From Winogradskyella jejuensis (lineage in GTDB: Bacteria; Bacteroidota; Bacteroidia; Flavobacteriales; Flavobacteriaceae), in contig NZ_FQWS01000002.1 of NCBI RefSeq assembly GCF_900129745.1, forward strand, positions 62,001 through 126,000: DNA of 64,000 bases, in the 5' to 3' direction. Under the pieces are notes generated by a model. That model was not told the DNA's origin. It searched no databases and saw only the letters and a list, made by a program, of their open reading frames with translations. Position 1 is the stretch's first letter; each line of letters opens with the position of its first letter. Shown one piece after another: positions 1,812 to 7,044 of this stretch. The position numbers and the translations under genes were made by a program.

Positions 1812-1891
1812 TATTTTTTTTTCATTTTAGGTCGTCTTGTTTAGGTTAATAGTAATAATACTTAAACATTTGTTAATTATTCGCAAAGGTG

Positions 1892-1904
1892 ATAGTATTA
1901 CTAT
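1892..1904 (+). promoter_or_regulatory. Candidate operator upstream of the TetR gene
   Basis: A 13-base palindrome, ATAGTA-T-TACTAT, lies 23 bases before the regulator's start codon. A weaker AGTA...TACT inverted pair is present at 1851-1862. TetR-family repressors usually bind palindromes in their own promoter. The assignment is inferred from position only. Confidence 0.4.
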
Positions 1905-1927
1905 TAAATTCGCGTTTTAAATAATTA

Positions 1928-2608
1928 ATGATGAAAAATTTACTCTCCAGTATTAAGATTTCAGTGCCAGAGAAGATATTTCTGAAAGACCCTGAGTCTT
2001 CGGATTTAGGAAAGCGCATTATAGAACATAGTATATTGTTAATTGATGAGATTGGTTTCGATAATTTTACATTTAAAAAATTGGGAACTAAAATTGGCTC
2101 TAACGAGAGTTCTATATACCGATATTTTGAAAGTAAACATAAGCTACTACTATACTTAACATCATGGTATTGGGCTTGGATAGAATATCAATTAGTGTTT
2201 TCCACGTCTAACATTCCTAATCCTGAAGAGCGATTGCTTAAAGCTATAGAAATAGTAACGCAAACGATTAAAGAGGATTACGATTTCTCTCATGTTAATG
2301 AGGTAAAGCTTAATCAAATCATCATTAATGAGTATTCTAAATCCTATCTAACAAAAGAAGTTGATAGCGAAAACAAAGAAGGCTATTTTGAAGTCTATAA
2401 GCGTTTAATTACGAGACTTAGAGATATGATTTTGAATATTAATCCTGAGTATAAATTTGCGTCTAGTATTTCTAGTACTATAGTAGAAGGCGCTTTACAT
2501 CAACATTTTCTTAAAGACCATTTTAAATCTATTACTGATTGTAGCGAAAAAGTTACACCAACTAAATTCTTTCAAGATTTAACGATTAACGCTATTAAAC
2601 CAAAATAA
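1928..2608 (+). CDS. TetR/AcrR family transcriptional regulator
   Basis: This is a 226-residue DNA-binding regulator. The TetR helix-turn-helix is visible at about residues 48-75 (FTFKKLGTKIGSNESSIYRYF), with the characteristic (I/S)YRYF after the recognition helix. It is followed by a ligand-binding helical domain rich in Trp and Tyr. The domain begins about 25 residues later than in typical TetR proteins because of an N-terminal extension. The start has two consecutive ATG codons (1928 and 1931). It is the first gene of a tight cluster with an ABC exporter, HlyD and TolC proteins (3 bases to the next gene), so it most likely controls that export system. The ligand is unknown. Confidence 0.88.
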   Translation: MMKNLLSSIKISVPEKIFLKDPESSDLGKRIIEHSILLIDEIGFDNFTFKKLGTKIGSNESSIYRYFESKHKLLLYLTSWYWAWIEYQLVFSTSNIPNPEERLLKAIEIVTQTIKEDYDFSHVNEVKLNQIIINEYSKSYLTKEVDSENKEGYFEVYKRLITRLRDMILNINPEYKFASSISSTIVEGALHQHFLKDHFKSITDCSEKVTPTKFFQDLTINAIKPK

Positions 2609-2611
2609 GAT

Positions 2612-4273
2612 ATGCTTCAAGAAAAACCACTTTTAACCCCATGGCAACGTTTCATTGGGTTACTTAAGCTTGAAAAAAAAGATTTATTTCAAGTGATATA
2701 CTATGCTGTTTTCTCTGGATTAATAGGCTTAACCCTGCCTCTAGGAATTCAGGCTATTATAAACTTAATCCAAGGTGCCCAAGTAAGTACATCATGGATA
2801 GTACTTGTTAGTTTAGTGACTATTGGTGTAGCTTTTGTTGGAATTTTGCAACTTATGCAAATGCGTATAATTGAGACTATTCAACAGCGTTTGTTCATGC
2901 GAGCATCTTTTGAGTTCACCTATCGTTTTCCAAAAATTAGGATGGATGAGCTACATAACTACTATCCGCCGGAGTTAGCAAATCGATTTTTTGATGTGCT
3001 CACAGTGCAAAAGGGTTTGGCAAAACTGTTGATAGACGTACCAACGGCTGTGCTACAAATTGTATTTGCGCTTGTTTTACTGTCATTTTACCATCCGTTT
3101 TTTATAGCATTTGGTGTATTGCTTATAGCGCTCATATATATTGTATTTAAATATACAATCCAACGTGGTATGGACACGAGTTTAAAGGAGTCTAAGAAAA
3201 AATATATCGTAGCCCATTGGATTCAAGAAGTGGCTAGAGCTATCATGAGCTTTAAAATATCAGGTAAAACATCTTTGGCCATTGACAAAAATGATAAGCT
3301 AGTCGAAGATTATTTAATAGCGCGAGAAAGTCACTTTAAGATATTAATTATTCAATTTATCCAAATGATTGGGTTCAAGGTTTTAGTTACTGCTGGACTT
3401 TTACTAATTGGTGGTTTACTTGTGCTTAATCAAGAAATGAATATTGGACAGTTTGTCGCGGCAGAAATTATTATTCTTTTAGTCATCGGGTCAGTAGAAA
3501 AATTGATTCTAGGTTTAGAATCTTTTTATGATGTACTAACCTCTTTAGAGAAGATGGGTCAGGTAGTAGATAAAAAAATCGAATCTCAAGATGGTGAAGA
3601 AGTCAGAGTCGATAAAGATTTTAATATAGAGTTAGAAAAAGTATCCTATGTTGTACCAGACAGAAGTTTGCCAATTCTTAATGATGTGTCATTAAAAATT
3701 AATTCTAAAAGTAGAATTTTAGTAAAAGGTGAGAGTGGCTCAGGAAAATCCACACTAATTAGAATACTTTCTGGAATCTTTAGACCAACTACAGGTCGTA
3801 TTTTCTTGAATGATACAGCTGTTAACAATCTAAAATTAAATAGTTACAGAGCACATTTAGGATTGGTGTTAAGTGATGAGACACCTTTTGAAGGCAGTAT
3901 TAGAGAGAACTTAACTCTTGGAGACGAGTCAATAACCCAACAGAAAATAGAAGAAATTTTATCTATTGTCGGTTTAGTTGATTTCTTAAAGGAAACAGAA
4001 TTAGGTTTAAATACCGTGATTTATCCAGAAGGACGACAGATTCCGTTTACAGTTACCAAAAAAATCATGTTAGCAAGAGCGATTCTTAAAAAACCTAATA
4101 TGATGATTTTAGAAGAACCTCTAGAGCATTTTGAAGCGCAAGAGACAAAACGAATTATCAAATACCTCACAGATGCAAGCCATCCTTGGTCTTTAATTGT
4201 TGTAAGTTTTAATCCAGAGTGGTCAGATAGCTGTACTCAAATCTTAAACCTAAGTAAAGGTCAAATCGTTTAA
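2612..4273 (+). CDS. ABC transporter (exporter type) with degenerate nucleotide-binding domain
   Basis: This 553-residue fusion has an ABC exporter membrane domain (about six hydrophobic segments between residues 25 and 310) and a C-terminal ATPase domain (340-553). Walker A is intact (GESGSGKS, 373-380) and an aromatic A-loop is present (VSYVV). The other motifs deviate. The Q-loop glutamine position reads LSDE, the LSGGQ signature is replaced by IPFTVTK (about 477-483), Walker B ends LEEP rather than LDEP, and the H-loop histidine position is Phe (VSFNP, 533). ATP is probably bound, but hydrolysis by this protein alone is doubtful. It has no C39 peptidase domain. Three bases separate it from the TetR gene and 11 from the HlyD gene, so it is the inner-membrane part of a type I secretion or efflux machine. 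Confidence 0.87.
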   Translation: MLQEKPLLTPWQRFIGLLKLEKKDLFQVIYYAVFSGLIGLTLPLGIQAIINLIQGAQVSTSWIVLVSLVTIGVAFVGILQLMQMRIIETIQQRLFMRASFEFTYRFPKIRMDELHNYYPPELANRFFDVLTVQKGLAKLLIDVPTAVLQIVFALVLLSFYHPFFIAFGVLLIALIYIVFKYTIQRGMDTSLKESKKKYIVAHWIQEVARAIMSFKISGKTSLAIDKNDKLVEDYLIARESHFKILIIQFIQMIGFKVLVTAGLLLIGGLLVLNQEMNIGQFVAAEIIILLVIGSVEKLILGLESFYDVLTSLEKMGQVVDKKIESQDGEEVRVDKDFNIELEKVSYVVPDRSLPILNDVSLKINSKSRILVKGESGSGKSTLIRILSGIFRPTTGRIFLNDTAVNNLKLNSYRAHLGLVLSDETPFEGSIRENLTLGDESITQQKIEEILSIVGLVDFLKETELGLNTVIYPEGRQIPFTVTKKIMLARAILKKPNMMILEEPLEHFEAQETKRIIKYLTDASHPWSLIVVSFNPEWSDSCTQILNLSKGQIV

Positions 4274-4284
4274 ATAAAAGTATT

Positions 4285-5637
4285 ATGTTAAACATTTCTC
4301 GTAACCCATTAAATAAAGATGTAGATTTAAGTCACTTCAAATCTGCAAGTCATGTATTTAATAAAGATTATTACAAGTATTGGAGACGATTTTTAGGAGG
4401 ATTTGCTATCGTTTGTTTTATTATACTTTTTTTACCGTGGACTCAAAATATTTCGGGTCGAGGTAAAGTAACGTCACTTACGCCAGAGCAGCGTCCACAG
4501 ACCATACAATCCCCAATTCCTGGAAGTATACAACAATGGTATGTGCGCGAAGGTGATCAGGTAAAGAAAGGTGATACCATTATGAAAATTGCCGAAATCA
4601 AAAGTGAGTATTTCGATCCTAATCTTGTACAGCGAACAGAAAAGCAAAGACAAGCAAAATCTTTTTCTGTTGAGTCTTATCAAGGAAAGGTAAAAGCGCA
4701 AAATGTTAGAATTGGTGCACTTGTAAGAGAAAGGAAGCTAAAGCTAGAAATGGCTGAGAATAAAATTTTACAAGCGCTTCAAAAAGTAAAAGCTGATAGT
4801 ATAGATTTGGTAGCCGCAAGAACCAATCTAAGCATTGCGCAAACAAAATATAACCGAGCAGATTCATTATATCAAGATGGATTTACGGCATTAAAACGTG
4901 TAGAAGACGCAAGAGTTAAGTTGCAAGAAACTCAGGCAAAAGAAACCTCTCAAGAAGCTAAACTTTTAGTTAGTAAAAACGAAGTGATTAATGCAAGGTT
5001 AGATATTGCCCGCATTCAGGCAGAATATGCAGACAAGATTTCTAAAGCCGAGAGTGAAAAATTTTCAGCATTATCTAATCAATTAGACACAGAAGCCCAA
5101 GTGCAAAAATTAGAAAATGAAGTCTCAAACTATACCATACGAAATGGATTACTATATGTTACTGCGCCCTATGATGGATACATACAAACTGCGCTTCGTG
5201 GTGGTATTGGGCAAACTTTCAAAGAAGGCGAAGAGCTAGTAGGTATTATCCCAGAAAATGTTGACTTAGCTGTAGAGACTTTTGTAGAGCCTATAGATTT
5301 ACCATTAATTCATAAAGGTGAAAAAGTACGTGTGCAATTCGATGGATGGCCTGCAATAATTTTTAGTGGATGGCCTAATGTGTCTTACGGAACTTATGGT
5401 GCTGAGGTTGTAGCTGTAGAGCGTTTTATTAGTCCAAACGGAAAATTTAGAGTTCTACTCAAGCCTGACCCAGAAGACCATGCTTGGCCAAAAGATGTGC
5501 GTCCAGGTTCGGGTGCATTTACAATGGCGTTGTTAGAAGATGTGCCAATTTGGTTTGAGTTATGGAGGCAGCTTAATGGTTTTCCACCAAATTATTATCA
5601 GCCTATAGATACGGCAAAAAACACTAAAAAGAAATAG
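4285..5637 (+). CDS. HlyD-family membrane fusion (adaptor) protein
   Basis: This is a 450-residue periplasmic adaptor of a tripartite exporter. One N-terminal transmembrane helix is seen at about residues 37-55 (GGFAIVCFIILFLPW). A biotinyl-lipoyl-like half motif follows (IPGSIQQWYVREGDQVKKGD), then a long alpha-helical hairpin from about 120 to 285 rich in Gln, Lys and Ala. The second lipoyl half (VTAPYDGYI) and beta-barrel region come after it. The adaptor would bridge the ABC protein upstream to the TolC protein four bases downstream. The order TetR-ABC-HlyD-TolC in one direction supports a single transcript. The substrate cannot be read from the sequence. Confidence 0.9.
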   Translation: MLNISRNPLNKDVDLSHFKSASHVFNKDYYKYWRRFLGGFAIVCFIILFLPWTQNISGRGKVTSLTPEQRPQTIQSPIPGSIQQWYVREGDQVKKGDTIMKIAEIKSEYFDPNLVQRTEKQRQAKSFSVESYQGKVKAQNVRIGALVRERKLKLEMAENKILQALQKVKADSIDLVAARTNLSIAQTKYNRADSLYQDGFTALKRVEDARVKLQETQAKETSQEAKLLVSKNEVINARLDIARIQAEYADKISKAESEKFSALSNQLDTEAQVQKLENEVSNYTIRNGLLYVTAPYDGYIQTALRGGIGQTFKEGEELVGIIPENVDLAVETFVEPIDLPLIHKGEKVRVQFDGWPAIIFSGWPNVSYGTYGAEVVAVERFISPNGKFRVLLKPDPEDHAWPKDVRPGSGAFTMALLEDVPIWFELWRQLNGFPPNYYQPIDTAKNTKKK

Positions 5638-5640
5638 CAG

Positions 5641-7044
5641 ATGCGATATCTTATAGTACTCATTTTAGTCGGTTTCTGTTTTGTTGGGCATGCTCAGTCA
5701 GATAGCCTAGCCAATATTTTACGTTTTGATGAATATTTGGGTTATGTCAAGAAATTTCATCCTATCGTTAAGCAGGCTGAGTTAGTTATTGACGAAAGTC
5801 AAGCCAAGCTTATGAAATCTCGTGGCGCTTTTGACCCTAAGATTGATGTAGATTACGATAGAAAGAAGTTTAAAGGCACAGAGTATTTCGATAAATTGAA
5901 TGGTACCTTTAAAATACCTACTTGGTTTGGTATCGAGCTTAAAGCAAATTTTGAAGAAAATTCGGGAGATTTCTTAAATCCTGAAGCTTTTGTGCCAGAA
6001 GATGGCTTGTATTCTGCAGGAGTTTCCGTGCCTATTGCACGTGGATTACTCATCAATGATAGAATGGCATCATTAAAACAAGCGCGGTTATTTAGAGAGC
6101 AAGCTAAGGCAGATAGAGATATCTATGTCAACAACATCTTATTCGAAGCTTCTAAAGTGTACTTTAAGTGGCTAATGGCTTATAATGAGCTCAGGCTTTT
6201 TGAAAACTTTCTGACCAATGCCGAGTTGCGCTATCGAGGTATTTTAAGAGGTGTGGAATTGGGTGAAAACGCACAAATAGATGCAACAGAAGCCAGAATT
6301 GCATTGAATAATCGAAAGCTGAGTTTAGAGCAAGCACGTATAAAAATGCTTAAGGCTTCATTAGAATTATCAACCTTTTTGTGGTTAGATAATAACATAC
6401 CCGTAGAATTGCAGCCTAATGTAATTCCAGATGTAGATACAGAGCCTATTGTTGATGCTACTTTCGATATAAATCAATTACGAAATGTTGAAGTCATCAT
6501 CGATGAGCACCCAAAACTCTTATCATTAGACTACAAACGTCAAAGCCTAAATGTAGAAAAACGTCTCAAAGCAAATATGTTGTTGCCGAGAGTTGATTTG
6601 GAATACAATTTCTTAACCGAAACACCAGATATAGGTCGTTCTTTTAATACTGCTGAATACAAAGGAGGACTTAATGTAAGTATGCCTTTGTTTTTAAGAA
6701 AGGAAAGAGGCGATTTAAAATTGGCAAAAATTAAATTAAGAGACACAGAGTTTGAAATCGATGCCACTCGTGTTAATCTTCAGAATAAGATTAATGGTTT
6801 AAAACAAGAGTTGGATTCTTATGTGACTCAAAACGAAATTACCGTTCAAATGGTTACAGATTATCAGCAAATGCTGATTGCCGAAGAGCGTAAGTTTCAA
6901 TTAGGAGAAAGCTCTTTGTTTTTAGTGAATTCTCGTGAGTCCAAACTTATCGAAGGGCAATTGAAGGCTATCGAAATTCAGAATAAGTTTTTTAATACCA
7001 AGGCAAAGCTATTTAATAGTTTAGCAGTTAACCCTGAGCTTTAA
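5641..7044 (+). CDS. TolC-family outer-membrane efflux protein
   Basis: This is a 467-residue protein with a cleavable signal peptide (MRYLIVLILVGFCFVGHAQ) and two related halves of long coiled helices with beta strands, as expected for the TolC outer-membrane/periplasmic channel. Typical features are the (V/A)NN(I/L)-(L/F)FEASKVYFKWL helix in the first half and NTAEYKGGLNVSMPLF followed by the second helical hairpin. It completes the TetR-ABC-HlyD cluster and would be the exit duct. No terminator is apparent after its stop, and the next gene has its own promoter. Confidence 0.9.
   Translation: MRYLIVLILVGFCFVGHAQSDSLANILRFDEYLGYVKKFHPIVKQAELVIDESQAKLMKSRGAFDPKIDVDYDRKKFKGTEYFDKLNGTFKIPTWFGIELKANFEENSGDFLNPEAFVPEDGLYSAGVSVPIARGLLINDRMASLKQARLFREQAKADRDIYVNNILFEASKVYFKWLMAYNELRLFENFLTNAELRYRGILRGVELGENAQIDATEARIALNNRKLSLEQARIKMLKASLELSTFLWLDNNIPVELQPNVIPDVDTEPIVDATFDINQLRNVEVIIDEHPKLLSLDYKRQSLNVEKRLKANMLLPRVDLEYNFLTETPDIGRSFNTAEYKGGLNVSMPLFLRKERGDLKLAKIKLRDTEFEIDATRVNLQNKINGLKQELDSYVTQNEITVQMVTDYQQMLIAEERKFQLGESSLFLVNSRESKLIEGQLKAIEIQNKFFNTKAKLFNSLAVNPEL

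Follow-up and report, generated by a model that had tools for sequence, protein, structure and literature searches.

A four-gene operon at positions 1928–7044 of a 64,000-nucleotide stretch of Winogradskyella jejuensis DNA (NCBI RefSeq contig NZ_FQWS01000002.1, positions 62,001 to 126,000 of the forward strand; hereafter the window) encodes a TetR-type regulator, a permease of the ATP-binding cassette (ABC) exporter type, an HlyD-family adaptor and a TolC-family outer-membrane channel. The ATPase domain of this permease no longer has a complete set of hydrolysis motifs, comparable losses run through its whole family, and one clade of relatives has dropped the domain while keeping the operon. 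To judge from these sequences, transport very probably proceeds independently of ATP hydrolysis by this permease. An ion gradient, probably of protons, is put forward as the energy source, a proposal on which we are evenly divided. The reading that we favour, and hold with middling confidence, is that of a TetR-controlled tripartite exporter that has abandoned its own ATP hydrolysis and is driven by an ion gradient in the manner of SbmA.

Hydrolysis motifs of the window permease

The permease and the relevant parts of its ATPase domain are located as follows.

2612..4273, + strand: type IV ABC-exporter-like permease with a degenerate ATPase domain, 553 aa (Pfam, alignments, AlphaFold model)
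3620..4270, + strand: degenerate nucleotide-binding domain (NBD), residues 337–553 (motif alignments; ABC_tran 77.9 bits)
3728..3754, + strand: Walker A GESGSGKST, retained, residues 373–381 (Lys in 220/223 ATPase-bearing members)
3872..3874, + strand: Q-loop position, Ser (S421) replacing Gln (alignment to solved exporters and relatives)
4040..4054, + strand: signature position, IPFTV (I477–V481) replacing LSGGQ (alignment to solved exporters and relatives)
4112..4117, + strand: end of Walker B, E501 (Asp lost) and E502 (catalytic position still Glu) (alignments)
4208..4210, + strand: H-loop position, Phe (F533) replacing His (alignment to relatives)

Alignments to solved exporters and to relatives also place the aromatic A-loop residue, Y346, which is retained. 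The hydrolysis set is incomplete, with Q421S, IPFTV in place of the signature, D501E and H533F. An original prediction, made from the window alone, had read Walker A and the A-loop as kept and the Q-loop Gln, LSGGQ, Walker B Asp and H-loop His as replaced, and the alignments confirm each of these assignments; they add a point absent from that account, namely that the catalytic Glu is intact at E502. Misread motifs or a frameshift are ruled out by ungapped alignments to solved exporters and by agreeing relatives, since the identical four losses occur in all seven same-genus relatives with a returned locus (L013–L019), and none of 223 members is canonical-complete.

Motif decay across the family

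Within the genus, 22 of 31 genomes carry a homologue, and within the family 177 of 299 do (both at E up to 1e-60); a sample of 395 genomes from the whole phylum Bacteroidota has 97 with one (E up to 1e-50). Four of 332 sequences (L338, L332, L239 and L128) were excluded as the anchor motif was not found in them; removal of duplicates left 310 anchored unique members, comprising 223 with an ATPase domain, 85 short ones and two cut by a contig end. Sampling is uneven, Flavobacteriaceae being over-represented among the 223. A search of the literature, limited to PubMed Central (PMC), listed no account of this family or of HlyD/TolC-linked ABC permeases without an NBD.

None of the 223 unique ATPase-bearing members carries the full canonical motif set. 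Walker A Lys (220) and an aromatic A-loop residue (212) are nearly always present, and the remaining positions are mostly lost: Walker B Asp persists in 37, H-loop His in 21, Q-loop Gln in 19 and the S..G signature in eight, with the catalytic Glu in 65. Walker B Asp and H-loop His are found together in 18 members, mostly basal. The replacement residues vary from member to member and form no fixed alternative set, so that the orthologue alignment which the original prediction had proposed gives a divided answer: the motif losses are family-wide, and the residues that took their place are not conserved. Motif degeneracy is a state of the family, not a local mutation.

Several members depart further from the common pattern. 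L103 (5614–7272, − strand) has a full-length ATPase domain in which Walker A is also lost, reading YEHPLFVRT instead of GxxGxGKST. N-terminal extensions of about 150–250 residues, absent from the window protein, precede the membrane domain in L093, L094, L104, L121 and L133; a Pfam scan of these five found no family above cut-off in the extensions, and the family has other members of 700–840 aa. L067 (G473) has a stop codon within the match and is possibly a frameshift or a decaying copy.

Loss of the ATPase domain in one clade

Eighty-four unique members stop just past the membrane domain. These NBD-less members form a single clade (FastTree support 100) nested among ATPase-bearing members and come from three families: in the first (151 genomes, 65 with a match) L216–L238 account for 23; in the second, in which 111 of 121 genomes match, at least 30 matches are short (L246–L275); and in the third (120 genomes, 100 with a match) L276–L300 account for 25. 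The C-terminal ends of 77 short members lie within about 20 residues of each other. In L108, L109 and L111–L113 the HlyD gene starts at most 70 bases from the permease end or overlaps it, and in L110 it overlaps; because HlyD abuts or overlaps the short permease in these six loci, no ATPase remnant is hidden there. In the two NBD-less members scanned, no curated model scored above its cut-off.

A tree of 92 members, built with 17 of the 34 NBD-less representatives and with the coupling helix 2 columns left out, requires one state change, with an SH-aLRT of 99 for the NBD-less clade. The clade lies below nodes of 99, 99, 99, 100, 92 and 97; weaker nodes (84, 87 and 36) stand nearest to it. A tree of ATPase domains was rooted on 20 canonical Bacteroidota exporters, three of the 23 outgroup sequences having been left out as incomplete. 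In it the family is monophyletic (100). Of the 29 derived representatives, 27 sit together at a node of 99 along with one of the eight basal ones; the two other derived members, L107 and L126, are placed among basal ones. This outgroup tree backs the rooting of the family tree on near-canonical members, and because the family tree is so rooted, the change is one of loss rather than gain. As the sequences have it, the ATPase domain decayed across the family and was then dropped in one nested clade.

An 85th short member, L334 (G924), stops soon after the membrane domain, lies outside the NBD-less clade and is a probable frameshift or possibly a decaying copy; it is excluded from the NBD-less counts, and with it two state changes are counted on the FastTree tree. 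Genome G910 holds two NBD-less members together with an ATPase-bearing one (L306, L307 and L335).

Operon conservation and selection

Where the flanking sequence is long enough, as it is for 12 of the 84 NBD-less members, HlyD and TolC lie directly downstream of the permease in 120 of 122 derived loci with an ATPase domain, in 16 of 17 basal loci and in all 12 NBD-less ones. A TetR gene near the permease, on either strand, is found in 95 of 123 derived loci, in one of 17 basal and in one of 12 NBD-less loci. Among close Flavobacteriaceae the median dN/dS (the ratio of nonsynonymous to synonymous substitution rates) is 0.083 for the ATPase domain and 0.025 for the membrane domain, both far below 1; these medians derive mostly from same-genus sequences and from the 6 of 78 pairs that were usable, most with dS near 2. 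In the least saturated pair the values are 0.088 and 0.012, respectively. For NBD-less members the median, taken over 106 non-independent pairs, is 0.084, which suggests purifying selection. The low ratios and the conserved gene order bear out the earlier view that the system is maintained.

The usual pattern of conservation between membrane domain and NBD is inverted in the derived family. Among 29 derived representatives, membrane-domain identity is 0.466 vs 0.298 for the NBD and is the higher of the two in 406 of 406 pairs. In eight basal representatives the two domains are nearly level (0.406 vs 0.390; the membrane domain is higher in half of 28 pairs), and canonical exporters show 0.228 vs 0.418, with the membrane domain higher in 0 of 183 pairs, canonical pairs with a membrane-domain identity of at least 0.62 having been excluded. 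Across 49 Flavobacteriaceae-type members the membrane domain has 75 invariant columns and the ATPase domain 11. All invariant columns of a 17-member alignment also fall in the membrane domain, which is partly automatic because that alignment includes three NBD-less rows.

Membrane-domain structure and conserved charges

The features of the membrane domain discussed below are the following; helix limits are taken from the structural model, and helix names were assigned by us.

2633..3586, + strand: membrane domain, residues 8–325, the conserved part of the protein (membrane-domain identity above NBD identity; invariant columns)
3023..3037, + strand: conserved charged K138 and D142 in TM3 (family alignments)
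3242..3262, + strand: coupling helix 2, residues 211–217, the region most relaxed in NBD-less relatives (model helix; largest entropy rise nearby)
3377..3379, + strand: conserved intramembrane K256 (K/R) in TM5 (family alignments, canonical control groups)
3464..3502, + strand: TM6 stretch with conserved E285, E296 and K297 (family alignments, canonical control groups)

The AlphaFold monomer model of the window permease (mean pLDDT 87.6) has the standard type IV exporter architecture, with an elbow helix (10–20), transmembrane helices TM1 (22–54), TM2 (60–108), TM3 (119–158), TM4 (163–209), TM5 (221–272) and TM6 (278–319), coupling helices 1 (111–114) and 2 (211–217), and the ATPase domain from residue 339. 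Its whole-chain structural matches include 6rai_B (Z 28.6, rmsd 2.7, 542 residues aligned) and 8dck_B (Z 28.5, rmsd 2.6, 544 aligned), and TmrAB, HlyB and PCAT1 match the model over the entire chain. Pfam detects both ABC_membrane (33.3 bits) and ABC_tran (77.9 bits) above the Pfam cut-offs. By its domains and by the whole-chain match of the model, the protein belongs to the ABC exporter superfamily, with a predicted type IV fold.

Six charged positions in the predicted membrane core are conserved, namely K138, D142, K/R256, E285, E296 and K297. They are kept in 97–100% of NBD-less representatives and in 78–100% of basal ones; 20 canonical exporters mostly have other residues at these six positions and show a single conserved charged core position. 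When canonical groups of matched divergence were treated by the same procedure (of 40 control sequences 37 were accepted, and the analysis took the two largest groups at each threshold), those of 11 and nine sequences had no conserved core charges, compared with four to six in the family, acidic ones included. From their spacing by four residues, K134, K138 and D142 would lie on one face of TM3, and E285 and E296, eleven residues apart, would share a face of TM6.

Coupling helices in NBD-less members

NBD-less members are less diverse overall (mean membrane-domain identity 0.590 vs 0.483), and column entropy is for that reason lower in them nearly everywhere, with a median window difference of −0.42 bits. 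Against this background the eight highest 20-residue entropy windows, up to +0.30, all start at residues 202–209, around coupling helix 2. In blocks of ten residues, 208–227 rises by +0.21 and +0.29, and 148–157 shows a slight rise of +0.14. The share of R209 drops from 93% to 15%, and that of E206 from 96% to 44%.

A search of the window's genome for a partner ATPase lacking a membrane domain, as suggested at the outset, gave 48 bits as the best match of the whole protein to a free-standing ATPase. In 14 NBD-less genomes no free-standing ATPase exceeds 68.4 bits against the family ATPase domain, whose nearest relatives there are full-length exporters, including second family copies in two of the genomes. 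These low scores and the relaxed coupling helix 2 argue against a dedicated, though not against a generic, ATPase acting in trans. As for candidates within the operon, no ATPase partner is encoded in it, the ORF (open reading frame) list of the window operon contains no second ABC gene, and the ABC-like neighbours in L132 and L133 (963 and 977 aa), considered as partner subunits, read as UvrA. An ABC ATPase of 282 aa lies about 1.3 kb beyond the tolC end in L108, after another gene; no comparable one is labelled within the stretches examined of L109–L113.

Mechanism and alternative explanations

Under the reading that we favour, the permease would have descended from an ATP-driven type IV ABC exporter and would form, as the inner-membrane part, a tripartite exporter with the HlyD adaptor and the TolC channel. 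Energy would come from an ion gradient, most likely protons, by way of K138, D142, K/R256, E285, E296 and K297, and the membrane domain would alternate access as SbmA does. In members that bear Walker A, the ATPase domain would be a leftover, perhaps still binding ATP and playing a structural or regulatory part. Ordinary hydrolysis is, by sequence, very unlikely, in line with the initial suggestion that the normal hydrolysis site had been removed.

A number of observations weigh against this interpretation. Coupling helix 1 is still conserved in NBD-less members, and the basic residue K215 of coupling helix 2 survives, as Arg, in 31 of the 34 representatives without an NBD; both could be used by an outside ATPase. 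Two canonical groups of six sequences have one and two conserved core charges, all basic, and the number of core charges per protomer is 8.38 in the family vs 7.85 in canonical exporters and 7.44 in NBD-less members; since the total is not raised, conservation rather than abundance is the distinguishing point. The conserved charges could, moreover, serve as structural salt bridges. Finally, the Walker A Lys in 220 of 223 members and the low dN/dS of the degenerate domain indicate that binding of nucleotide is probably still of importance in members with the domain.

This last point leads to an unlikely but substantial alternative, in which the degenerate domain binds ATP through Walker A and, without hydrolysis, gates the protein as a permease or a channel, the NBD-less clade having lost that control. 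The near-universal Walker A Lys, the aromatic A-loop in 212 of 223 members, an ATPase-domain dN/dS well below 1 and the full ABC fold in the model are all consistent with it. Residues of the signature and D-loop, which usually assist in holding ATP between the two domains, are mostly lost here; one clade dropped the domain and kept the operon, and gating leaves the source of energy unexplained. The nucleotide-gated export machine envisaged in the original prediction may thus apply to Walker A-bearing members, the window's own included, but not as the general mechanism. A further proposal, which we regard as improbable, is that the permease is powered in trans by a shared or separate ATPase or is paired with another full exporter having intact sites. 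Other full exporters do exist in the genome (L002 and L003 with LSGGQKQR, L004 with a DEAT Walker B), and NBD-less members have a conserved coupling helix 1. On the other hand, the operon lacks a second ABC gene, the L132 and L133 neighbours read as UvrA, free-standing ATPases in the 14 NBD-less genomes reach at most 68.4 bits with full exporters as nearest relatives, and in members without the domain relaxation is greatest around coupling helix 2. The separate ATPase partner that had been proposed is disfavoured on these grounds.

Slow ATP hydrolysis with replacement residues, the third option raised originally, is highly improbable in our estimation. The Glu at the catalytic position of the window protein (E502) and the 18 mostly basal members with both Walker B Asp and H-loop His would suit it, but the replaced positions are variable, with no fixed alternative set, and one clade does without an ATPase domain altogether. 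That the protein is a non-transporting scaffold or a decaying relic we consider barely credible. Nine of the 31 genus genomes have no match (E up to 1e-60), and the system is therefore dispensable; yet the median membrane-domain dN/dS is 0.025 (6 usable pairs) and that of NBD-less members 0.084, and both the operon and the candidate operator are conserved.

Comparison with known systems

In the published account, SbmA is proton-driven, is a proposed descendant of ABC transporters that lacks the ATPase domain and the coupling helices, and uses a ladder of conserved membrane glutamates in its mechanism (PMC13316013). SbmA/BacA, the SLiPT peptide transporters, thus share with the present family a type IV ABC membrane domain and conserved membrane charges, and they have no ATPase domain, whereas the window protein has a degenerate one and 84 of its relatives none (PMC13316013). 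SbmA further has extra N-terminal elements in that account (PMC13316013) and no coupling helices, while the window permease has them at 111–114 and 211–217. SbmA is an importer, whereas the window family would be an exporter by its partners, and, unlike SbmA, the family preserves several stages of ATPase loss. SbmA is not known to have an HlyD/TolC partnership. The conserved acidic D142, E285 and E296 may or may not be counterparts of the SbmA glutamate ladder. Pfam contains an SbmA/BacA family model, and it has no match in the window protein (E 0.001) or in three NBD-less members (E up to 0.1). SbmA is not among the best 50 matches listed of either structure search, which is uninformative either way.

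Type I secretion transporters (LssB, HlyB, PrtD) and PCAT have the same fold and, as in the window, HlyD and TolC operon partners, and HlyB/D and PCAT1 are among the best structural matches of the window permease. Unlike type I secretion ATPases, however, the window permease is without the hydrolysis motifs. Its best NCBIfam match, LssB TIGR03375, scores 186.5 against a cut-off of 693.1 bits; TIGR01846 (145.3 vs 725.55) and TIGR01842 (133.7 vs 510.15) likewise stay below the type I secretion cut-offs, as do the HlyD (95.9 vs 208.65) and TolC (41.8 vs 225.15) proteins. Pfam scans of the window protein and nine relatives found no C39 peptidase domain.

Heterodimeric exporters such as TM287/288, TmrAB and TAP resemble the family in having lost some motif residues with ATP binding kept, and the degenerate-site transporters described in a review have one degenerate and one working site (PMC7756269). 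The window system differs from these in that no partner subunit is co-encoded, and a homodimer would have both sites degenerate. EmrAB-TolC, a proton-driven major facilitator superfamily (MFS) pump with an HlyD-type adaptor, would be the functional parallel, being tripartite and without an ATPase; the inner-membrane part in the window has the ABC rather than the MFS fold. The energised components of tripartite pumps are given as members of the ABC, RND (resistance-nodulation-division) and MFS families in a review (PMC8277102).

The operon and its control

The remaining genes of the operon and the candidate operator are listed here.

1890..1906, unstranded: candidate TetR operator, palindrome TGATAGTATTACTATTA, just upstream of the tetR start (inverted repeat, recurrence)
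1928..2608, + strand: TetR-type regulator, 226 aa (Pfam TetR_N 31.7 bits)
4285..5637, + strand: HlyD-family periplasmic adaptor, 450 aa (Pfam HlyD_3 52.5 bits, Biotin_lipoyl_2 41.3 bits)
5641..7044, + strand: TolC-family outer-membrane channel, 467 aa (Pfam OEP 136.6 bits)

All four reading frames (TetR, ABC permease, HlyD, TolC) lie on the + strand and are separated by gaps of 3, 11 and 3 nt; the short gaps and the Pfam domains agree with the first description of a tight operon with intact HlyD and TolC partners. No tRNA genes or Rfam families were found in the window, and defence-system models gave weak matches to the ABC protein only, around the P-loop.

A palindrome of the TAATAGTAWTACTATTA type lies directly upstream of tetR in many relatives, with many Flavobacteriaceae among them. 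Of 170 upstream regions of family loci, 108 contain AGTA.TACT and 89 TAGTA.TACTA; these regions are those ahead of an ORF of at least 170 aa that precedes the permease, and not every such ORF was checked as TetR. In many of 45 rows listed the palindrome continues into a TATATTTG box, presumably the Bacteroidota −7 element, and the window's own sequence deviates there. The 15-base operator core occurs once in the window genome (G000), at 1892–1906, so that the regulator may serve this operon alone there. A dedicated operator is called into question by G005 and G018, which have one site each and no homologue at E up to 1e-60, by G016, G022 and G023, where the single exact site lies away from the operon, and by G021 and G002, which have a further site. 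A TetR regulator with a candidate operator suggests induction by the exported small molecule.

Significance

How a primary transporter is converted into a secondary one is an open question, and SbmA is the example that we found. The present family may be a second, independent route from ATP to ion drive within the ABC fold, one taken by a tripartite exporter; we rate this possibility at a little under even. On this view a membrane charge network would have come before motif decay, followed by loss of the domain and relaxation of coupling helix 2, with all three stages extant in living Bacteroidota. Labels based on fold alone ("ABC transporter ATP-binding protein", type I secretion ATPase) could mislead on function in many genomes. 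In one and the same type of operon the family offers living intermediates whose ATPase domain is near-canonical, degenerate or missing, and the energy source is therefore directly testable by comparison of its members.

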